Source: a virus
Length of the DNA stretch: 36,177 bases
Reading direction: 5' to 3' (one strand)
IMG/VR virus record: IMGVR_UViG_3300002140_000223
Coordinates: 1-36,177 of that record
Shown: one piece after another, positions 8,870-36,177 of the stretch
How the letters are laid out: the number at the start of each line of letters is the position of its first letter
How positions within the stretch are numbered: position 1 is the stretch's first letter
The notes under the pieces: model-generated
What the model was told of the DNA's origin: nothing
What the model saw: only the letters and a program-made list of their open reading frames with translations
Databases searched by the model: none
Program-made: the position numbers and the translations under genes

Positions 8870-9257
8870 CTTAATTGGACCAGTAACTGGTCTATTAGAT
8901 AAATTTATTGAGGACAAAGACCAGAAAAATGCTTTAGCTCACGAAATTGCAACCATGTCGGAGAAGTATGCGAACGAGCAAGTTATAGCACAGTTGGAAG
9001 TCAATAAAACTGAAGCAGCTCATAAAAGTTTATTTGTTGCAGGATGGAGACCTTTCATCGGTTGGGTGTGTGGCCTAGGAATGGCGGGTAATTTTATAGT
9101 TATTCCCTTTGCCAACTTCGGACTAGCACTATTTAAACTAAGTATAATTATACCCCTAGTACCTCTGGAAGAAATGATGCCAGTACTTATGGGTATGCTT
9201 GGATTAGGGGCAATGCGAACCTATGAAAAGGCCAAAGGAGTGCAAAGAGAGAAATGA
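8853..9257 (+). CDS. Holin, three-TM GTA-type
   Basis: 134-residue protein resembling the 3-TM holin family known from gene-transfer agents and phages. An N-terminal helical region (GLLDKFIEDKDQKNALAHEI) and a soluble charged stretch are followed by the family's FVAGWRPFIGWVCGLGMAG, which enters membrane segments at about residues 66-85, 88-103 and 108-122. It should permeabilise the inner membrane and release the lysozyme. Overlaps the lysozyme gene by 17 bases and the next gene by ATGA. Confidence 0.85.
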   Translation: MSIIASLIGPVTGLLDKFIEDKDQKNALAHEIATMSEKYANEQVIAQLEVNKTEAAHKSLFVAGWRPFIGWVCGLGMAGNFIVIPFANFGLALFKLSIIIPLVPLEEMMPVLMGMLGLGAMRTYEKAKGVQREK

Positions 9258-9688
9258 ACAAAGACGACGCAGTAAGACAGCTAGCATCCTGCTACACCTA
9301 TGTGTATGATAAGAACCAATATGATTCTAGGGATGCTTGGTATGTAATGCGGCCTAAAGCTCCTTTGAATCATGACTATAGGGGAGATTGTGAGGACTTT
9401 TCTCTCACTCTACTATTCCATATTAGTGATAATAGTTGGAGAAAATTCTGGTGGAACCTAGTAAGTCGTAAAGCAAAGATTTGTTTTTGTGAAGTACGCG
9501 GTGGTGGACACGCAGTTCTTCGGTACGAAGGCATGTACGCTGACAACATTCAGCAAAAGTTTGTTACGCTAGAAGAACTACAGAATAAAAACTATGTATT
9601 TTCTAAAATTTTATTTATACCATACATGGTTGCAGTTAAGCTGTTGGTGGGTAAATATATCAAATGGAGATTGTCAAAGAAATCGTAA
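9254..9688 (+). CDS. Transglutaminase/papain-like cysteine peptidase
   Basis: 144-residue protein with a Cys-His-Asp triad of the transglutaminase-like superfamily: Cys46 in YRGDCEDFSLTLL, His86 in GGGHAVLRYEG and Asp97 in MYADN. A hydrophobic helix near the C-terminus (about residues 115-132) followed by basic residues suggests membrane attachment. Bacterial relatives (BTLCP type) process surface proteins; here it is the last gene of the lysis cluster, so a role in envelope disruption is plausible but unproven. Its last codons lie in the first copy of the 75-bp direct repeat. Confidence 0.8.
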   Translation: MNKDDAVRQLASCYTYVYDKNQYDSRDAWYVMRPKAPLNHDYRGDCEDFSLTLLFHISDNSWRKFWWNLVSRKAKICFCEVRGGGHAVLRYEGMYADNIQQKFVTLEELQNKNYVFSKILFIPYMVAVKLLVGKYIKWRLSKKS

Positions 9689-9750
9689 ATTAGTTCTTGA
9701 CTACTTGCTCAAACGATAGTATAATATCTTTTCTAAATTGAAGAAGGGTA
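9676..9750 (+). repeat. 75-bp direct repeat, left copy
   Basis: Identical to 10515-10589. It contains the last four codons of the peptidase gene, a complete promoter and the Shine-Dalgarno AAGAAGGG. The two copies bracket the HNH endonuclease gene. Confidence 0.97.
9697..9725 (+). promoter_or_regulatory. Sigma-70-type promoter (left repeat copy)
   Basis: TTGACT (9697-9702), 17-bp spacer, TATAAT (9720-9725). Drives the HNH endonuclease gene. Exact copy at 10536-10564. Confidence 0.88.
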
Positions 9751-9755
9751 TCTTA

Positions 9756-10532
9756 ATGAATTACATGAAACATTATAATGCGTTAATAGCTAAGGCTAAA
9801 GACGCAAGCCTGCTAAAAAATCCCAAGGAAGAGTACTGTGAGAAGCATCACATACTTCCAGTATGTTTGGGGGGTTCTAATGATTCTAGTAATTTAATCA
9901 ATCTTACAGCTAAGCAGCATTATATAGCTCACGCATTATTGTGGAAAGCGCAGGCTCCTGGCACCGCTGCTGCTGGTAAACTAGCAGCAGCTTTTAGGAT
10001 GATGTCAGTAAAAGGCGTAGGTCAGGCGGATAGAGAAAAGAAAATTACCAGTCGCCTTTATGAAGCAGCTAAAAAAGATTTTAGTAAGCATATGAGCGTA
10101 AATCAGACAGGTGAACTTAACTCTCAGCACGGAACCTGTTGGGCGTACACTTTTGATGATATAGACCCAAACGGTACTTTGGTTAATAGGAAATTCCCCG
10201 CAGGAGCTATACCAGAAGGATGGTTTGCCGGAAGACAACTTACCTCCTTTAGAATCTGCAAAGGGGAATTTTGCAACAAAGTACTTACAAATAAGTCTAG
10301 GCTTGCAAAGTATTGTGGAACGGGGTGTTCCAGGCCAAACCAAATACAAAAGAACAAAGTAAAGTTTATGGAGCATTACCTAAGTAACAATTATAATATG
10401 AACAAAGCTTGCATACACATAGGTATCAAATACGGGTGTGCGGGTGATAACGTTAAATACTGCAAAGATGTAATTATAGCTGAAGGGTATGGGTATACAC
10501 TAGAGCTAAACGCAAAAGAAATCGTAAATTAG
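9756..10532 (+). CDS. HNH homing endonuclease
   Basis: 258-residue HNH endonuclease of the phage homing type. The HNH core is near the N-terminus: KHHILPVCLGGSNDSSNLIN, then LTAKQHYIAHALLWK. Further on are a CxxxxC pair (ICKGEFCNKV) and a C-terminal helix-turn-helix-like DNA-binding segment (NMNKACIHIGIKYGCAGDN). ATG 9756 follows AAGAAGGG; an upstream TTG in frame lies over the Shine-Dalgarno. The last six codons come from the right copy of the 75-bp repeat, read in a frame different from the peptidase gene's. No intron is apparent, so it looks free-standing and mobile. Confidence 0.9.
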   Translation: MNYMKHYNALIAKAKDASLLKNPKEEYCEKHHILPVCLGGSNDSSNLINLTAKQHYIAHALLWKAQAPGTAAAGKLAAAFRMMSVKGVGQADREKKITSRLYEAAKKDFSKHMSVNQTGELNSQHGTCWAYTFDDIDPNGTLVNRKFPAGAIPEGWFAGRQLTSFRICKGEFCNKVLTNKSRLAKYCGTGCSRPNQIQKNKVKFMEHYLSNNYNMNKACIHIGIKYGCAGDNVKYCKDVIIAEGYGYTLELNAKEIVN

Positions 10533-10589
10533 TTCTTGACTACTTGCTCAAACGATAGTATAATATCTTTTCTAAATTGAAGAAGGGTA
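10515..10589 (+). repeat. 75-bp direct repeat, right copy
   Basis: Exact copy of 9676-9750, offset 839 bp. It supplies the end of the HNH gene and the promoter for the downstream genes. Confidence 0.97.
10536..10564 (+). promoter_or_regulatory. Sigma-70-type promoter (right repeat copy)
   Basis: TTGACT (10536-10541), 17-bp spacer, TATAAT (10559-10564). Drives the unit that includes the small Cys-rich protein, tRNA, thyX and iscU. Confidence 0.88.
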
Positions 10590-10597
10590 GTGAATAG

Positions 10598-10741
10598 ATG
10601 GATGAATCATGTCCTGTTTGTGGAGAGTACCTTTATGGTGATGGCTACGGAATGGCTATTCGCTGCCCTAACGCTTCAGAAGAACGCTGGTGGTATGAAG
10701 CCCCAGACTCTGGCCCATATTATTGTTTAGAGGAAGAGTAG
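10598..10741 (+). CDS. Small zinc-ribbon-like protein (47 aa)
   Basis: 47-residue frame with CPVC at residues 5-8, a Cys-Pro near residue 23 and another Cys at about 43, a Cys4-like arrangement that could bind zinc. It is rich in Trp, Tyr and acidic residues, and ends seven bases before the tRNA. AAGGG of the repeat lies about 10 bases before ATG 10598, a rather long spacing. Such small ribbon proteins are common in phages without a known role. Confidence 0.6.
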   Translation: MDESCPVCGEYLYGDGYGMAIRCPNASEERWWYEAPDSGPYYCLEEE

Positions 10742-10748
10742 AAGTTGA

Positions 10749-10825
10749 TGCGGGGTGGGGCAGTCTGGTAGCCCGACGGGTTCATATCCCGTAGATCGTA
10801 GGTTCAAATCCTACCCCCGCTACCA
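10749..10825 (+). tRNA. Initiator tRNA-fMet (CAU)
   Basis: Full cloverleaf with encoded CCA, 77 nt. D-stem GGGC/GCCC, anticodon stem ACGGG/CCCGT with loop TTCATAT (anticodon CAT), T-stem GTAGG/CCTAC with loop TTCAAAT, acceptor pairs at positions 2-7. Three marks separate it from elongator tRNA-Met: position 1 (T) cannot pair with 72 (T), three G-C pairs close the anticodon stem, and position 11-24 is purine-pyrimidine (G-C). The overall sequence follows the E. coli initiator closely, except that E. coli has C1/A72. It lies in the transcript from the promoter at 10536. Confidence 0.93.
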
Positions 10826-10846
10826 CTAATTATGAAAGGAAGTATA

Positions 10847-11026
10847 ATGACTAAGAAAGTGAGAATCCCTATGAAAGGAGGAGATGAGTTTGATGCTCTT
10901 ACCTCCGCTCGTAAGTTTTACCTGTACCTTACACGTTCAGGAGCTGTTAAAAAGATCAAACAACAATACAATAAACGATTTCGAAAAGTTGGAAAGCAAG
11001 AGATTCAGAACGGAGAAGATATATGA
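10847..11026 (+). CDS. Hypothetical basic protein (59 aa)
   Basis: 59-residue, strongly basic protein (KKIKQQYNKRFRKVGKQE near the C-terminus), possibly nucleic-acid binding. The N-terminal part has KVRIPMKGGDEFDALTSARK. I chose ATG 10847 because AAAGGAAG sits before it; an in-frame ATG at 10832 would overlap that site. Its stop shares ATGA with thyX. It follows the tRNA by 21 bases. Function unknown. Confidence 0.7.
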   Translation: MTKKVRIPMKGGDEFDALTSARKFYLYLTRSGAVKKIKQQYNKRFRKVGKQEIQNGEDI

Positions 11027-11685
11027 GTAGTGTAAATCTAATAGCTTTAAGTAAGCCAACGGCTTATTCAGAGTGTAATAGTGCAGAACAGCTAGTAGCT
11101 TATGCTGCTAGAGTAAGTAATCCTGCTAACCAGAACAACACTAAGACTTCTGGCAAATTAGTTAGCTTTCTAATTAAAGAAAACCATTGGTCTCCACTTG
11201 AAATGGTTCATTTAACTATGGAAATCAAAACCACAAGAGACATTTCTAGGCAGATTTTAAGGCATAGGTCTTTCTCTTTTCAAGAATTTAGCCAGCGTTA
11301 TGCAGTAAGTGAGAATTTTACTACTCGTGAAGCTAGACTACAGGATAAAAAGAATAGGCAGAACTCTTATGCTACGGATAATAAAGCTCTAGCAGAAGAG
11401 TGGAGCATGAAGCAAGCCTCTGTAATTAACAAAGCAAAAGAAGTCTATGAGTGGGCATTAGATAGTGGCATTGCGAAAGAGCAGGCACGAGCTGTACTAC
11501 CAGAAGGAAATACAGAGACTACACTGTATATGGCTGGCAGTCTGAGATCATGGGTACACTACTGTGACTTACGAATGTCAAATGGCACTCAGAAAGAGCA
11601 TATGGATATAGCAAGGCAGTGCTGGGAAATTCTGTCTCAGCACTTCCCAGACATCGGGAAAAGTGTTGAGGAGCTAAAAAGCTAG
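11023..11685 (+). CDS. thyX: FAD-dependent thymidylate synthase ThyX
   Basis: 220-residue flavin-dependent thymidylate synthase, making dTMP from dUMP with methylene-THF and NAD(P)H. The ThyX signature RHRxxSxxExSxR is present as RHRSFSFQEFSQR at residues 80-92. The C-terminal ARAVLPEGNTETTLYMAGSL and LRSWVHYCDLR segments carry family residues for dUMP and FAD binding. Length is normal. Common in phages; it supplies dTTP beside NrdAB. ATGA overlap with the gene before it; iscU begins 11 bases after its stop. Confidence 0.95.
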   Translation: MSSVNLIALSKPTAYSECNSAEQLVAYAARVSNPANQNNTKTSGKLVSFLIKENHWSPLEMVHLTMEIKTTRDISRQILRHRSFSFQEFSQRYAVSENFTTREARLQDKKNRQNSYATDNKALAEEWSMKQASVINKAKEVYEWALDSGIAKEQARAVLPEGNTETTLYMAGSLRSWVHYCDLRMSNGTQKEHMDIARQCWEILSQHFPDIGKSVEELKS

Positions 11686-11696
11686 GGAGAATAATT

Positions 11697-12095
11697 ATGG
11701 CATATTCTGATCAAGTCATGGACCACTACAACAATCCTCGTAACGTAGGTAAGTTAGATAAGGATTCTGATGCTGTTGGCACAGGCATGGTCGGAGCACC
11801 CGCATGTGGTGATGTAATGGTACTCCAGATACAAGTAGATGATGAAGGTCTCATCTCAGATGCTAAGTTTAAAACCTACGGATGTGGGAGTGCTATAGCG
11901 TCTTCTTCTCTTCTTACTGAATGGATAAAAGGGCGTACCCTAGATGAAGCCGGAAGTATTAAAAATACTGAGATCGCAGCAGAGCTTGCTCTACCCCCAG
12001 TTAAGATTCACTGTAGTGTCCTAGCGGAAGATGCGATCAAAGCCGCAATAAGGGATTATCGTAGCAAACATAGGAATATTGATGAGCGAAGGTAA
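11697..12095 (+). CDS. iscU: Fe-S cluster scaffold IscU
   Basis: 132-residue full-length IscU, on which Fe-S clusters are assembled. All key residues match E. coli IscU at the same numbers: Cys37 and Asp39 (GAPACGD), Cys63 (KTYGCGSAIASSS), the HscA-binding LPPVK at 99-103 and Cys106 (KIHCS). From memory of the E. coli protein, most of the chain is identical, so recent acquisition from a gammaproteobacterial host is likely. No IscS, HscA or ferredoxin is in the window, so it must work with host partners. Shine-Dalgarno AGGGAG overlaps the thyX stop. Unusual phage cargo. Confidence 0.95.
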   Translation: MAYSDQVMDHYNNPRNVGKLDKDSDAVGTGMVGAPACGDVMVLQIQVDDEGLISDAKFKTYGCGSAIASSSLLTEWIKGRTLDEAGSIKNTEIAAELALPPVKIHCSVLAEDAIKAAIRDYRSKHRNIDERR

Positions 12096-12537
12096 AAAGT
12101 TTGATAGTGAAAAGCCTAAGATGTATTTATTACCTCCAAAGGCTACTGTTGAAGTAGCAAAAGTATTAACTTTTGGTGCAGCAAAGTACGACGAAGAGAA
12201 CTGGCGTAAGCTAGATAATCTTCAGAATAGGTATACGGGTGGCGCATTAAGGCATATATTCGCTCACATGGATGGAGAGGATATTGACCCTGAAACTGGA
12301 TACAGTCACTTAGCACATGCAATGTGTTGTTTATTATTTAAATTGGAGGCACAACTTGAGGAAACAAGTAAAGAAGAAAGAGTACGAGAACTTATCGCCC
12401 TCGAACGTTCAAAAAGTCATTGGCCTCCTAAACCCCCAGGATTCTTCAGTGAAGCCAATCACAAAGAAGGAAGCGTGCGAGGTCTTAAATATAGCGTACA
12501 ATACGACCCGCTTGACACTGATAATCCAAAATCATGA
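12082..12537 (+). CDS. dATP/dGTP diphosphohydrolase-like protein
   Basis: 151 residues. The first 95 match the phage family described as dATP/dGTP diphosphohydrolase, N-terminal (formerly DUF5664): KKFDSEKPKMYLLPPKATVE, VLTFGAAKYDEENWRK, GALRHIFAHMDGEDIDPETG and SHLAHAMCCLLFKLEAQ. Conserved Glu, His and Asp suggest a metal-dependent MazG-like hydrolase. The remaining tail (Pro-rich, basic) does not look conserved and lies where the next gene is coded in another frame. Start ATG 12082 after AGGA; a TTG at 12079 is less likely. Probably part of dNTP pool control. Confidence 0.8.
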   Translation: MSEGKKFDSEKPKMYLLPPKATVEVAKVLTFGAAKYDEENWRKLDNLQNRYTGGALRHIFAHMDGEDIDPETGYSHLAHAMCCLLFKLEAQLEETSKEERVRELIALERSKSHWPPKPPGFFSEANHKEGSVRGLKYSVQYDPLDTDNPKS

Positions 12538-13066
12538 AGAGCAGAAAGAGTATGTAGCAAAACGTAAATCACAGAACCGAGGCAAAGCTGCTAGTGATGC
12601 TGAGATTTGTGAGGCAGTAACAGATTATCTCCAGGGTTCCACTGTTAGTGATATCTCTAGGAGATTGTATCGGTCCGCTGGGTTTGTAAAAACTCTACTA
12701 GAAAAGGTAGGTGTGCCCCACCGTCCGAGTAACGAAGAAGAGAGGAGAGAGCTAGAGTACTTCCCCGATGAGTGTGTATCCGAAGACTTTGATGTTGGTG
12801 AAATAGCATGGTCTTCAACTTATCATAGCACTGTGATAGTTGATCAAAAGTTGACGAAACAGTATATTAGTGACAAGTCTGGACTTCAGGCTTTTGACTA
12901 TGAAAGGAAGTATGGAACACACTGCTATTCAGTTTATGTTCTACAAAAAGTTCAAACCGAAGATTTAGATATTCAGACCGGTGGTTTTAGTGCATATGTT
13001 CCAGCCTACGAGTTAGGTAAGCTAGAGCACTTGAAAAAATATGGACTTGATTTATCAAGGATATAA
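12356..13066 (+). CDS. Conserved phage protein, helix-turn-helix (236 aa)
   Basis: 236 residues. The middle contains a helix-turn-helix (DAEICEAVTDYLQGSTVSDI then RRLYRSAGFVKTLLEKVGVP) and the C-terminal half a compact domain with ECVSEDFDVGEIAWSSTYHS, KYGTHCYSVYVLQKV and YELGKLEHLKKYG. I recall similar proteins in other phages without a function. Start TTG 12356 has GGAGG six bases upstream; an ATG at 12317 has none. The first 182 bases overlap the preceding gene in a different frame, an unusually long overlap. Confidence 0.75.
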   Translation: MRKQVKKKEYENLSPSNVQKVIGLLNPQDSSVKPITKKEACEVLNIAYNTTRLTLIIQNHEEQKEYVAKRKSQNRGKAASDAEICEAVTDYLQGSTVSDISRRLYRSAGFVKTLLEKVGVPHRPSNEEERRELEYFPDECVSEDFDVGEIAWSSTYHSTVIVDQKLTKQYISDKSGLQAFDYERKYGTHCYSVYVLQKVQTEDLDIQTGGFSAYVPAYELGKLEHLKKYGLDLSRI

Positions 13067-14653: not shown

Positions 14654-15592
14654 ATGCGAAGCCTTTTAGACAATGCGAGTAAGTTATACTATGAAGGTTG
14701 TCCTATCCTTTCGGATAATGACTTTGACCTTCTTGCTGCTAAACACAATTATCATACTGTGGGATACACTGTTACAGATGCCATAGAGCACACATTTCAG
14801 ATGTATAGTCTCCAAAAGTATTTTAATTTAGCAGATGCTCCATTGCTTCACGGATACATATGTACACCTAAACTTGACGGAGCTGCTGTATCCCTTCTAT
14901 ATATAGACGGGACATTCCAGTTAGCTCTGACACGAGGTGATGGCATTCAGGGTCGCGACATCTCAGATAAACTTAGGCTTATCGTCCCTAGTAGTATATC
15001 TACGAAGGGTGTAGTCCAGGTTACTGGGGAGATCGTTTCTCCTAAATCCATACCTAATGCTCGTAATTACGCTGCGGGTGCATTGAATCTTAAGGACTTG
15101 CAAGAGTTCAAGAGTAGAGATGTGACCTTCGTAGCTTACGACATGGTTGGGCACGATATGAGTACCTTTGAGAGAGTTATGGCTGAATTAAGCCAGGACG
15201 GGTTCAATGTTGTTACCTCATTTGATGCTAGTAACTATCCTACTGATGGTAAAGTGTTTCGCATTAATTGCTATAATACTTTTCATGAGATGGGATTTAC
15301 TGCTCACCACCCTCGTGGGGCGTTCGCTCTTAAGGAGCAAGCGGCCGGTATTGTTACTACCTTGTTAGACGTTGTCTGGCAGGTTGGTAAGAGCGGGGTT
15401 GTAAGTCCAGTAGCTATACTAGAACCAGTTACGATTGGGGAAGCAACTGTTGGGCGTGCAACTCTGCACAATATTCAGTATATTAGAGAGTTAAATTTGG
15501 AGATAGGCTGCCAAGTGGAAGTTATACGTTCAGGGGAAATTATACCTCGCGTAGTTCGACGTATAAATGTTAGTCTACCTGAAGAAAAATAA
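14654..15592 (+). CDS. ligA: NAD+-dependent DNA ligase, N-terminal subunit
   Basis: 312 residues covering the N-terminal part of bacterial LigA. Domain Ia: LYYEGCPILSDNDFDLL (11-27), which binds NMN. Adenylation domain: catalytic Lys73 in KLDGAAVSLLY, LTRGDGIQGRDI, TGEIVSP and RNYAAGALN. OB-fold: WQVGKSGVVSPVAILEPV and TVGRATLHN. Zinc finger, HhH and BRCT domains are missing but encoded by the next gene. The same split into ligA and ligB is known in T5. The protein seals nicks using NAD+. Its own promoter precedes it. Confidence 0.92.
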   Translation: MRSLLDNASKLYYEGCPILSDNDFDLLAAKHNYHTVGYTVTDAIEHTFQMYSLQKYFNLADAPLLHGYICTPKLDGAAVSLLYIDGTFQLALTRGDGIQGRDISDKLRLIVPSSISTKGVVQVTGEIVSPKSIPNARNYAAGALNLKDLQEFKSRDVTFVAYDMVGHDMSTFERVMAELSQDGFNVVTSFDASNYPTDGKVFRINCYNTFHEMGFTAHHPRGAFALKEQAAGIVTTLLDVVWQVGKSGVVSPVAILEPVTIGEATVGRATLHNIQYIRELNLEIGCQVEVIRSGEIIPRVVRRINVSLPEEK

Positions 15593-15595
15593 TTC

Positions 15596-15624
15596 TTGAC
15601 AAAGATGTTTAAAAGCCGTATAAT
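15596..15624 (+). promoter_or_regulatory. Sigma-70-type promoter
   Basis: TTGACA (15596-15601), 17-bp spacer, TATAAT (15619-15624). Lies between the two ligase genes and drives the second. Confidence 0.88.
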
Positions 15625-15650
15625 ATACTTTCAATTTCAGGAGATACCAG

Positions 15651-16403
15651 ATGATAGCAATCCAAGCCCCAACACATTGCCCAAGTTGCAATGCGGTTTT
15701 GGAAAGCGTCAACTATCTTCTGTATTGTCGTAACGCATCTTGCGGAGCGAAAATAGGAAAACTTATAGAACACTTTGCATCCTCTTTGAAAATCAAGGGA
15801 CTAGGCCCAGCCACTATACGAAAGTTAGACATTCAAGAATTGAATGAGCTTTATTCGTTTGGAAGCTCTATGGAGCTTTCTATTCTCCTTGGGTCAGAGA
15901 GACTTGCAAGTAAACTAGAAGAAGAACTACAGCGCTCACGAAATGCACCACTTAATGTGTTATTACCTGCTTTTAGTATTCCTCTTATTGGAAAAACTGC
16001 TGCACAAAAACTCGCGAAGGTCTGCAATACTATAAATGATATAGACTATGATAGATGTCGTGCTGCAGGTTTGGGAGAGAAATCTACCGCCAGTTTATTA
16101 AGTTGGTTAGAGCTAGAGTATCCTCTAGTGAAAGACTTACCTTTTAGCTGGGAGTTCGTAAAACCACAGAATACCTCTATAGTAAAGGGTATAGTATGTA
16201 TAACTGGCAAGTTAGTTAGTTATAAAACGAAAGCCCTTGCACACGAAGCCCTTCAAGAGAATGGCTATGAGGTTAAAAGTAGTTTAACTAGAGATGTAAC
16301 TATTCTAGTGAACGAAAGCGGAATTGAGTCCGCAAAAACTAAACAAGCCAGAGCTGCTGGCGTAACTATTGTAACTAATCTTTTAATTTTAACTGGAGAA
16401 TAA
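15651..16403 (+). CDS. ligB: NAD+-dependent DNA ligase, C-terminal subunit
   Basis: 250 residues matching the C-terminal part of LigA. A Cys4 zinc finger (Cys10, Cys13, Cys26, Cys31) comes first, then helix-hairpin-helix repeats (IKGLGPATIRKLD, FSIPLIGKTAAQKLAKV, AAGLGEKSTASLLSW), then a BRCT domain from about residue 178 (KGIVCITGKL … NGYEVKSS … ILVNESG). It should clamp DNA for the adenylating subunit, as in T5. AGGAGA precedes the ATG. There is no sign that a single gene was broken recently: each half has its own promoter and start. Confidence 0.9.
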   Translation: MIAIQAPTHCPSCNAVLESVNYLLYCRNASCGAKIGKLIEHFASSLKIKGLGPATIRKLDIQELNELYSFGSSMELSILLGSERLASKLEEELQRSRNAPLNVLLPAFSIPLIGKTAAQKLAKVCNTINDIDYDRCRAAGLGEKSTASLLSWLELEYPLVKDLPFSWEFVKPQNTSIVKGIVCITGKLVSYKTKALAHEALQENGYEVKSSLTRDVTILVNESGIESAKTKQARAAGVTIVTNLLILTGE

Positions 16404-34031: not shown

Positions 34032-36177
34032 TTAACTAGTTATTATTCTGCCGGTAAAGCCGACAGCACAGAGCTGAGTTCCTGTCCATGTAATATCATT
34101 AAATGAATCGGTCGTCCAGCTGGTTCTAGTAGTCCAGGTGATGCCATCGGGACTAGTTCTGATTGTAGCAGAATTACCAACAAGACAGAACTGAGTGCCT
34201 GACCAAGTGATAGCGTTCAGTGTTTGTGTTGTTCCGCTAGTTCTACTAGTCCAGGTGATTCCGTCAGGACTGGTTTTGATCATACCACTTTGACCGACAA
34301 AACAGAACTGTGTTCCAGACCAGACTACTTCATTTAATGTGCTTCCCGTTCCGCTAGTTCTGAGAGTCCATGTAACTCCATCAGAGCTGGTTATTACTCT
34401 TCCACTTGCACCGACAGCACAGAATTGAGTTCCAGTCCATACAACTCCATATAATGCTGAAGTGGTCCCACTTGTTCGAGTAGTCCAGGTGATTCCGTCA
34501 GGACTAGTTCTTATCGTACCACTAGCCCCAACAACACAGAACTGAGTTCCTGACCAAGTAACATCGTACAGTATTGCGGTCGTTCCGCTGGTTCTAGTAG
34601 TCCAGGTGATGCCATCGGGACTAGTTATGATCGTACCACTAGCCCCAACAACACAGAACTGAGTTCCTGACCAAGTAACGCTGTACAGTATTGCGGTCGT
34701 TCCGCTGGTTCTAGTAGTCCAGGTGATTCCGTCAGGACTGGTTAGAAGCCGTCCGAGCGCCCCGACAGCGCAGAACTGAGTGCCTGACCATGCGACGTTC
34801 TGAAGTGCCTGGTGAGTTCCGCTGGTTCTAGTGGTCCAGGTGATGCCATCAGGGCTAGTTCTTACTATGGTGCAGTCACCCACAGTGAGGAATTGAGTGC
34901 CTGTCCATGCGATTCCGCGAATATTTTGTGTATCCGTTCCGTAGGTATTGGTATTACCAAATCTAAGAGTCCATGTAATGCCATCGGGGCTAGTTATGAC
35001 CATACCGGAATAGCCATTATCTCCACCAACAGCACAGAACTGAGTGCCTGTCCAAGTAACATCGTATAATCCTCGAACGTACCCGCTTGTTCTAGTAGTC
35101 CAGGTGATGCCATTAGAGCTGGTTAAGGTTGTGCTCGCATTACCAATAGCACAAAACGTACTTCCAGACCAAGTGACGTCATTTAATGTTTCGCTGGTAC
35201 CGCTTGTTTGTGTTGTCCAGGTGATGCCATTGGTACTAGTTTTTATCGTACCGAGAGCACCAACAATACAGAACTGAGTTCCTGACCAAGTGACGCCATA
35301 TAATGTGCTAGTCGTTCCGCTAGTTCTAGTAGTCCAGGTGATGCCATTGGTACTAGTTCTTATCGTACCACTAGCCCCAACAACACAGAACGTACTTCCA
35401 GACCAAGTAACATCGTAGAATGTGCTAGTCGTTCCGCTAGTTCTAGTAGTCCAGGTGAGGTTATCGGGACTAGTTATGATCGTACCACTATTTCCGACAG
35501 CGCAGAACTGAGTGCCTGTCCATGTAATGCCCCTTAATGTGCTTGCCGTTCCGTTGCTCCTAGTAGTCCAGGTGATGCCATTAGAGCTGGTTAAGCTTGC
35601 ACTATTTAATCCTACGATATAAAACTGTGTTCCAGACCAAGTGACGCCCTTTAATGTGCTAGTCATTCCGCTAGTTCTAGTAGTCCAGGTGATGCCATTG
35701 GTACTAGTTTTTAGCGTACCACTATTTCCAACAACACAGAACTGAGTTCCTGACCAAGTGACATCGTTTAGTGTTTGTGATGTTCCGCTAGTTCTGAGAG
35801 TCCAGGTGATTCCGTCAGGACTGGTTTTGATCCTACCACTAGCTCCAACTAGACAGAACTGAGTTCCTGACCAAGTGACGCCATATAATGTGCTGGTCAA
35901 TCCGCTGCTCCTAGTAGTCCAGGTGATTCCGTCAGGACTGGTTTTGACCTTACCACTAGCTCCAACAATACAGAACTGTGTTCCAGACCAAGTGACGCCA
36001 TATAATATGCTGGTCAATCCGCTGCTCCTAGTAGTCCAGGTGATTCCGTCAGGACTGGTTTTGACCTTACCACTAGCTCCAACAATACAGAACTGTGTTC
36101 CAGACCAAGTGACGCCATATAATATGCTGGTCAATCCGCTGCTCCTAGTAGTCCAGGTGATTCCGTCAGGACTGGTT
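34032..36177 (-). CDS. Beta-propeller-like repeat protein, 5' end outside window
   Basis: At least 700 residues, open to the right edge, so the N-terminus is missing. It is built from about 18 units of 39 residues; a typical unit includes LYGVTWSGTQFCIVGASG then TSPDGITWTTRTSG. The S-P-D-G-x-x-W signature is an Asp-box (BNR/sialidase-like) blade motif. This many blades exceed one propeller, so several propellers or a long solenoid are possible. With the chaperone-like gene downstream it is probably a receptor-binding tail-fibre or adhesin. No pectinase or sialidase residues are evident. Confidence 0.75.
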   Translation of the reverse strand, partial: TSPDGITWTTRSSGLTSILYGVTWSGTQFCIVGASGKVKTSPDGITWTTRSSGLTSILYGVTWSGTQFCIVGASGKVKTSPDGITWTTRSSGLTSTLYGVTWSGTQFCLVGASGRIKTSPDGITWTLRTSGTSQTLNDVTWSGTQFCVVGNSGTLKTSTNGITWTTRTSGMTSTLKGVTWSGTQFYIVGLNSASLTSSNGITWTTRSNGTASTLRGITWTGTQFCAVGNSGTIITSPDNLTWTTRTSGTTSTFYDVTWSGSTFCVVGASGTIRTSTNGITWTTRTSGTTSTLYGVTWSGTQFCIVGALGTIKTSTNGITWTTQTSGTSETLNDVTWSGSTFCAIGNASTTLTSSNGITWTTRTSGYVRGLYDVTWTGTQFCAVGGDNGYSGMVITSPDGITWTLRFGNTNTYGTDTQNIRGIAWTGTQFLTVGDCTIVRTSPDGITWTTRTSGTHQALQNVAWSGTQFCAVGALGRLLTSPDGITWTTRTSGTTAILYSVTWSGTQFCVVGASGTIITSPDGITWTTRTSGTTAILYDVTWSGTQFCVVGASGTIRTSPDGITWTTRTSGTTSALYGVVWTGTQFCAVGASGRVITSSDGVTWTLRTSGTGSTLNEVVWSGTQFCFVGQSGMIKTSPDGITWTSRTSGTTQTLNAITWSGTQFCLVGNSATIRTSPDGITWTTRTSWTTDSFNDITWTGTQLCAVGFTGRIITS
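34060..36177 (-). repeat. 117-bp coding tandem repeat
   Basis: The repeat gene consists of 117-bp units. The units nearest the right edge are identical at the DNA level (35920-36036 equals 36037-36153, continuing to the end), while those further left have diverged. One unit is longer (near 34990) and one has a modified spacer. The gradient implies recent expansion at the N-terminal side. Confidence 0.85.

Follow-up and report, generated by a model that had tools for sequence, protein, structure and literature searches.

Two identical copies of a promoter segment flank an HNH endonuclease-type gene in a metagenomic phage contig

The T4 literature discusses as a real constraint how a free-standing endonuclease gene can enter a packed phage genome and leave its promoters and genes unbroken (PMC2988022). 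The locus described here raises this question directly: how could a gene for an HNH homing-endonuclease-type protein settle between two gene blocks and leave both of them intact? The locus lies on a metagenomic viral contig, a 36-kb IMG/VR virus record whose 36,177 nucleotides were analysed as a whole and are referred to below as the window. Our preferred reading, which we consider probable, is that a promoterless free-standing HNH gene recently entered the genome of a tailed phage, where it came to lie after the lysis/peptidase block and ahead of the small-gene/tRNA/thyX block, and that the 75-bp promoter segment at the insertion point was duplicated in the process.

A promoter segment on both sides of an HNH gene

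Table 1. Features of the locus, with positions in the window
Feature	Position	Strand	Remarks
Upstream gene, 144 aa	9254..9688	+	last three codons and stop inside the left repeat
Left 75-bp direct repeat	9676..9750	+	upstream gene's end, promoter and Shine-Dalgarno, ahead of the HNH gene and now serving it
Promoter, left copy (predicted)	9697..9725	+	TTGACT-17-TATAAT; motif
Unique inserted segment, 764 bp	9751..10514	+	from 5 nt before the HNH ATG to 18 nt before the ORF end
HNH homing-endonuclease-type gene, 258 aa	9756..10532	+	phrog_655; C-terminal tail KEIVN* from the right repeat
Right 75-bp direct repeat	10515..10589	+	HNH gene's final five codons and stop; promoter and Shine-Dalgarno for downstream genes
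Promoter, right copy (predicted)	10536..10564	+	motif
Small zinc-ribbon-like gene, 47 aa	10598..10741	+	first gene 3' of the right promoter; Pfam DNA_ligase_ZBD weak, below cut-off
tRNA-Met (CAT)	10749..10825	+	
thyX (flavin-dependent thymidylate synthase)	11023..11685	+	Pfam Thy1 5.6e-44; downstream synteny anchor

A sequence-only reading of the locus had claimed that the two direct repeats are identical, that each holds a promoter and a Shine-Dalgarno sequence, and that two different proteins end within the repeat sequence, each read in its own frame. Each of these claims was borne out. The copies match at 75/75 positions, and the bases just outside them differ (C versus A on the 5' side, T versus G on the 3' side). 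Both contain TTCTTGACT-N17-TATAAT, a predicted promoter recognized by motif, together with the Shine-Dalgarno sequence GAAGAAGGG. Codons read from the two copies give TC-A AAG AAA TCG TAA for the end of the upstream gene on the left and, in a different frame, AAA GAA ATC GTA AAT TAG for the end of the HNH gene on the right. In window positions 1-33000, this pair is the only exact repeat of at least 20 bp, and the longest exact repeats in 20 first-order Markov sequences of 33 kb each were 13-18 bp. The repeat pair is thus far beyond chance.

The same arrangement was found on a second contig (L008, IMGVR_UViG_3300002144_000282, 7769 bp), which carries both 75-bp copies and differs from the window by one SNP in 7769 bp, at window position 9200, outside the repeats. 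This bears on the possibility that a mixed population or a wrongly resolved repeat graph produced the structure and that the copies never stood in this order on one molecule. The window comes from a metagenome, a 75-bp repeat can surpass the k-mer length of an assembler, and the 839-bp spacing of the copies lies above typical short-insert libraries, all of which would make such an error easier. However, the second contig has its own SNP and different ends and still presents the same structure, although both contigs could share the fault. The HNH reading frame also enters the right copy cleanly and stops a few residues past the ends of its homologs. We therefore consider an assembly artefact quite improbable.

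Promoters of the same type are not rare in this phage: about 14 further occurrences were detected in the window and others in related contigs, often close to the 3' end of the gene before them or overlapping it. Over the 75 bp, the other copies that the repeat finder listed reach only 61-69% identity, so that the pair around the HNH gene alone qualifies as a genuine recent duplication; the same comparison (at most 69% identity over 75 bp) ruled out any of the window's other promoters as the source of the repeat. Both copies of the pair are presumably active, judging from their motifs. These numbers also bear on a more general explanation, namely that phages gain varied genes by recombination at promoter/RBS leaders and that the HNH gene is simply cargo, with the nuclease uninvolved. 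The dispersed promoter motifs could act as recombination sites for such events, but over 75 bp they are too diverged to have been the source. Moreover, the identical stretch includes the last codons of the upstream gene, which shows that a piece of this locus was copied rather than a generic promoter.

The 764-bp segment between the copies is essentially a bare ORF, without a promoter, Shine-Dalgarno sequence or stop codon of its own. The HNH gene is its only long ORF on the plus strand, and no transposase, integrase or recombinase was found in it. We found no inverted repeats at its ends, and an Rfam search of positions 9000-11400 returned no intron, group I introns included, the tRNA being the sole match. 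A transposon with a target-site duplication was rejected given that terminal inverted repeats, transposase and integrase are all missing. Complete ORFs lie on either side of the HNH gene, as expected of a free-standing intergenic endonuclease gene. The layout also agrees with the earlier proposal that the insertion gave the HNH gene a promoter while rebuilding one for the genes downstream: the left copy puts a predicted promoter and Shine-Dalgarno sequence ahead of the HNH gene, and the right copy encodes the end of the HNH gene and puts the same predicted promoter and Shine-Dalgarno sequence ahead of the downstream genes, so that no neighbour is disrupted.

A profile search matched residues 1-130 of the HNH protein to phrog_655 'homing endonuclease' (E 3.4e-38), and residues E29, H31, H32, N46, H55 and H59 were invariant across 26 aligned HNH relatives. 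The AlphaFold2 model (mean pLDDT 80.7, pTM 0.57) presents a strand-strand-helix core at residues 28-65 (strands 28-32 and 47-51, helix 52-65) and a helical C-terminal region. No significant match was obtained for the model with Foldseek against the PDB, nor any match in a sequence search of the PDB. Based on the profile and the conserved residues, the protein can be assigned to the phrog_655 family of HNH homing endonucleases. The homologs in Rhizobium phages LG08 and IC12, which are among the best-matching cultured phages, stop at the residue aligned with '...GYGYTLE' of the window protein; its LNAKEIVN tail is therefore extra and mostly encoded by the repeat. We did not observe a foreign base composition or codon usage in the HNH gene. 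Because both match the phage, a foreign origin is suggested by the rarity of the gene alone.

Relatives and the empty state

The upstream gene gave no significant match to Pfam, PHROG or NCBIfam. Its homologs occur in Vibrio and Aeromonas phages, where some are annotated 'peptidase', and two others (L009 and L010) share 48-50% identity with it and are located in other contexts. On the other side, the order 3' of the right copy is the 47-aa zinc-ribbon-like gene, tRNA-Met, a 64-aa gene and thyX. Syntenic relatives were collected using thyX and the holin as hooks. In L119, L122, L144, L036, L030 and L040, the lysis gene or genes are followed by accessory genes, if present, then by one promoter, DUF193 and thyX, and there is no HNH gene. 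Two further records fit this pattern in part, L143 with no thyX detected and L037 as a fragment without the lysis gene; in each of them the promoter precedes DUF193. The strict promoter motif was not found in the corresponding interval of L125. Because DUF193 of the window sits upstream of the lysis genes, the synteny with these relatives is partial.

In the syntenic relatives, many of which are fragments, the interval from the lysis genes to thyX contained no HNH gene. More broadly, phrog_655 was missing from 49 of the 50 records searched, and the single positive was a record that had been chosen for its HNH homolog. These comparisons, made with diverged and often fragmentary relatives, support an ancestral state with one promoter and no HNH gene. 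We also searched for the empty allele of this very phage. The exact 59-bp promoter pattern retrieved only the second contig from IMG/VR, and the DNA of the locus gave only short matches to phage records, mostly to single genes. Searching with the upstream gene led to L009 and L010 in their other contexts and to no homolog in bacterial genomes. Finally, no donor carrying the HNH gene was found.

The sequence-only reading had called for a relative without the HNH gene in which one copy of the repeat joins the flanking genes, and had described the locus as a recent, non-disruptive mobile-gene insertion. The first expectation holds in part: relatives without the gene exist, and they mostly have one promoter where the interval is complete. 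The second draws its support from the exact identity of the copies, which argues for recency, from the nearly bare ORF that was inserted, and from the syntenic relatives that do not carry it. For both points, the searches returned no empty allele of this phage itself. Overall, we regard the locus as a real and probably recent insertion that disrupts nothing; the gene is of a familiar type, and the duplication of its promoter is unusual.

A possible repair route and the fate of the recognition site

We reconstructed the putative empty site by joining the two flanks and compared its k-mers to the occupied window, a procedure that addresses the local site only and assumes that the joined flanks equal the ancestral empty site. 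All tested k-mers of up to 76 bp were still present, and the first absence occurred at k=77. With every stretch of up to 76 bp kept, a local recognition site of ordinary length would outlast the insertion. Classical homing, in which the insertion destroys the recognition site, is accordingly unlikely at this locus, where the 75-bp duplication restores the sequence of the empty site. The HNH enzyme would then either cut elsewhere or tolerate or nick its own site. The cut sites of free-standing phage endonucleases are usually hundreds to thousands of bp away, and HNH enzymes of the Mob type nick DNA (PMC2988022). The arrangement has a further consequence: a break in either 75-bp copy would favour loss of the HNH gene through annealing of the repeats. 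Since this enzyme cannot depend on the destruction of a local target, a question concerning nicking HNH enzymes becomes testable here.

How the duplication itself arose can be framed as repair provoked by an endonuclease or a nick during co-infection. Along one route, the right side would have been repaired homologously from a donor in which the HNH gene lay directly upstream of the same promoter, while the left side would have been closed by illegitimate joining within the leader. Along a second route, each strand would have been nicked once, the two nicks being offset by about 75 bp, and fill-in would have taken place around captured DNA. Both the one-sided repair and the offset nicks are compatible with the data. 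T4 intron homing provides observed cases in which one side was repaired illegitimately with microhomology (PMC2988022), and for other systems one study reports short tandem duplications where breaks leave overhangs (PMC8355091). T4-type phages also carry promoterless endonuclease cassettes, and in some of these the ORF itself contains the downstream gene's promoter (PMC2988022). We infer the recency of the event, the insertion of an ORF and the repair route from the present layout.

The same layout would also be expected if the promoter and HNH gene had been excised through the 75-bp repeats as a circle or tandem unit and re-inserted reversibly by a single crossover at the promoter: a repeat-ORF-repeat structure with perfect repeats is the exact product of such a crossover. 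However, neither a circle nor an empty site was seen, both contigs present the integrated form only, and the insert encodes no enzyme for integration or recombination. This explanation is very improbable in our view. Insertion with duplication of the promoter segment at the point of entry, the reading that we favour, would still predict an easy and precise loss of the HNH gene, since the duplicated promoter allows the repeats to anneal.

Known systems and duplicated edges elsewhere

The closest counterparts of the window gene are the free-standing endonucleases of T4-type phages (mobA-E and segA-G; PMC2988022). The resemblance includes the intergenic location, the orientation shared with the neighbours, the HNH type, the absence of a promoter of their own with use of the upstream one, and the embedding of the downstream promoter in the ORF. 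In contrast, the review of these genes contains no occurrence of 'duplicat' or 'direct repeat', whereas the promoter of the window is duplicated intact and is identical on both sides. A second parallel is found in the mORFs of fungal mitochondria (Allomyces atp6; Glomus atp6, atp9, cox2 and nad3; PMC3630166), where an endonuclease ORF lies at the edge of a gene, the edge is duplicated and the gene stays complete. The duplicated edges of mORFs may differ by mostly silent changes (PMC3630166), as they do in two of the phage contigs described below (L258 and L314). The mORFs differ from the window in being mitochondrial and in duplicating coding C-termini, probably from a foreign donor (PMC3630166), whereas the window duplicates a promoter and its copies are identical. 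By its sequence, the window presents an mORF-like duplicated edge and L258, L277, L314 and L291 have similar layouts, a likeness that concerns architecture only.

Two other phage systems share some of these features. Segmental amplification by SegB in T6/T4 (PMC13096335) also involves a phage endonuclease near tRNA genes, whose cutting, together with recombination, leads to repeated segments. SegB, however, is a GIY-YIG enzyme associated with tandem 718-bp units and immune selection (PMC13096335), whereas the window has one HNH gene and two short promoter copies. The phrog_655-type HNH genes of phages LG08, IC12 and Aeromonas phage phiA8-29 (L208, L209, L210) directly adjoin tRNA genes, and in the window (9756-10825 for the two genes together) the HNH gene lies about 215 bp from tRNA-Met. 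An association of such genes with tRNAs, as reported for SegB, is possible. In cluster K mycobacteriophages, the SAS/ESAS elements likewise place one leader sequence before several genes per genome (PMC3203893), but these are conserved dispersed motifs, whereas in the window two identical copies of recent origin enclose a single, presumably mobile, gene. A limited literature search returned no account of a phage HNH gene enclosed by intact and identical copies of a promoter. The perfect duplication offers a direct snapshot of one solution to the problem of entry, with copies that have not yet diverged.

HNH relatives retrieved from IMG/VR were then screened for direct repeats in their flanks, both in the DNA and in its translation, with other ORFs as controls. 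The window was by far the strongest case. Most related phage HNH genes had no flanking repeats above background, so the refuting case named by the sequence-only reading, an HNH gene with unrelated flanks, has to be applied with care. The duplication is a property of the window insertion, and the idea that flanking repeats characterize the HNH family as a whole was rejected. A few genes nevertheless presented duplicated edges. In L291 (2421-3281), an HNH gene located behind a Gp23-type capsid gene has a terminator-like hairpin of 36 bp on each side, the two copies agreeing at 35/36 positions. In L258 (2375-3260), the opening codons of a T4-like DNA polymerase (MSYISAITDRRRDAVIV), left as a truncated gene start, lie before the HNH gene, and the polymerase gene 3' of the HNH gene encodes these residues again at its start, with silent differences. 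The HNH ORF of L277 has a C-terminus of its own (YLKWLEEGNVPTPADK) that resembles the C-terminus of the gene that it overlaps. Finally, an endonuclease-like ORF in L314 (604-1272), with NUMOD3 repeats and an apparent GIY-YIG motif, lies upstream of a nifU/iscU-like gene and is flanked by two silently differing versions of the 3' end of the upstream gene (GTNDPITGNAYGRR*).

Under strict settings, repeats were found at 3/137 related HNH ORFs and 8-11/1642 controls (p 0.047-0.087 depending on the threshold), where the first count leaves out the window, L314 is among the controls and the thresholds were set after the first matches had been seen, so that the enrichment is suggestive only. These counts return us to recombination at leaders with the HNH gene as cargo. 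Similar promoter/RBS-leader duplications flank genes that do not encode endonucleases, namely a pair of 131- and 79-aa ORFs beside thyX (L057:2983-3714), a nifU gene (L095:671-1144) and a 281-aa ORF (L128:5773-6677), and the enzyme therefore need not be the cause. On the other hand, flank duplications are about 3-5 times commoner at endonuclease ORFs than at controls, with borderline significance. Taken together with the divergence of the other promoter copies, we consider that explanation unlikely. Under the preferred reading of an insertion that duplicated its own target segment, the duplicated edges at a polymerase start, a capsid-gene terminator and gene 3' ends suggest that this mode may recur. 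A more speculative extension, which we regard as possible but doubtful, is that free-standing phage endonucleases repeatedly insert at regulatory or gene edges and duplicate a promoter, terminator, gene start or gene end, sometimes with silent changes, in a phage-wide 'cut and rescue' parallel to the mitochondrial mORFs. If so, such an insertion would avoid harm to the host genome, and the window would be its freshest example.

Further gene structures were noted in other parts of the window. The NAD-dependent DNA ligase is found as two ORFs of 312 and 250 aa (14654-16403) with a phage promoter between them, at 15596, and the same split with a promoter occurs in L031, L033 and L037. At 12079-13066, two long ORFs (152 and 249 aa) share about 220 bp, each in its own frame, and both match phage protein families. 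Finally, a 700-aa ORF on the minus strand (34032-36134), which reaches close to the end of the contig, consists of tandem repeats with a unit of 117 bp (39 residues), arranged as two blocks that are separated by an irregular stretch.
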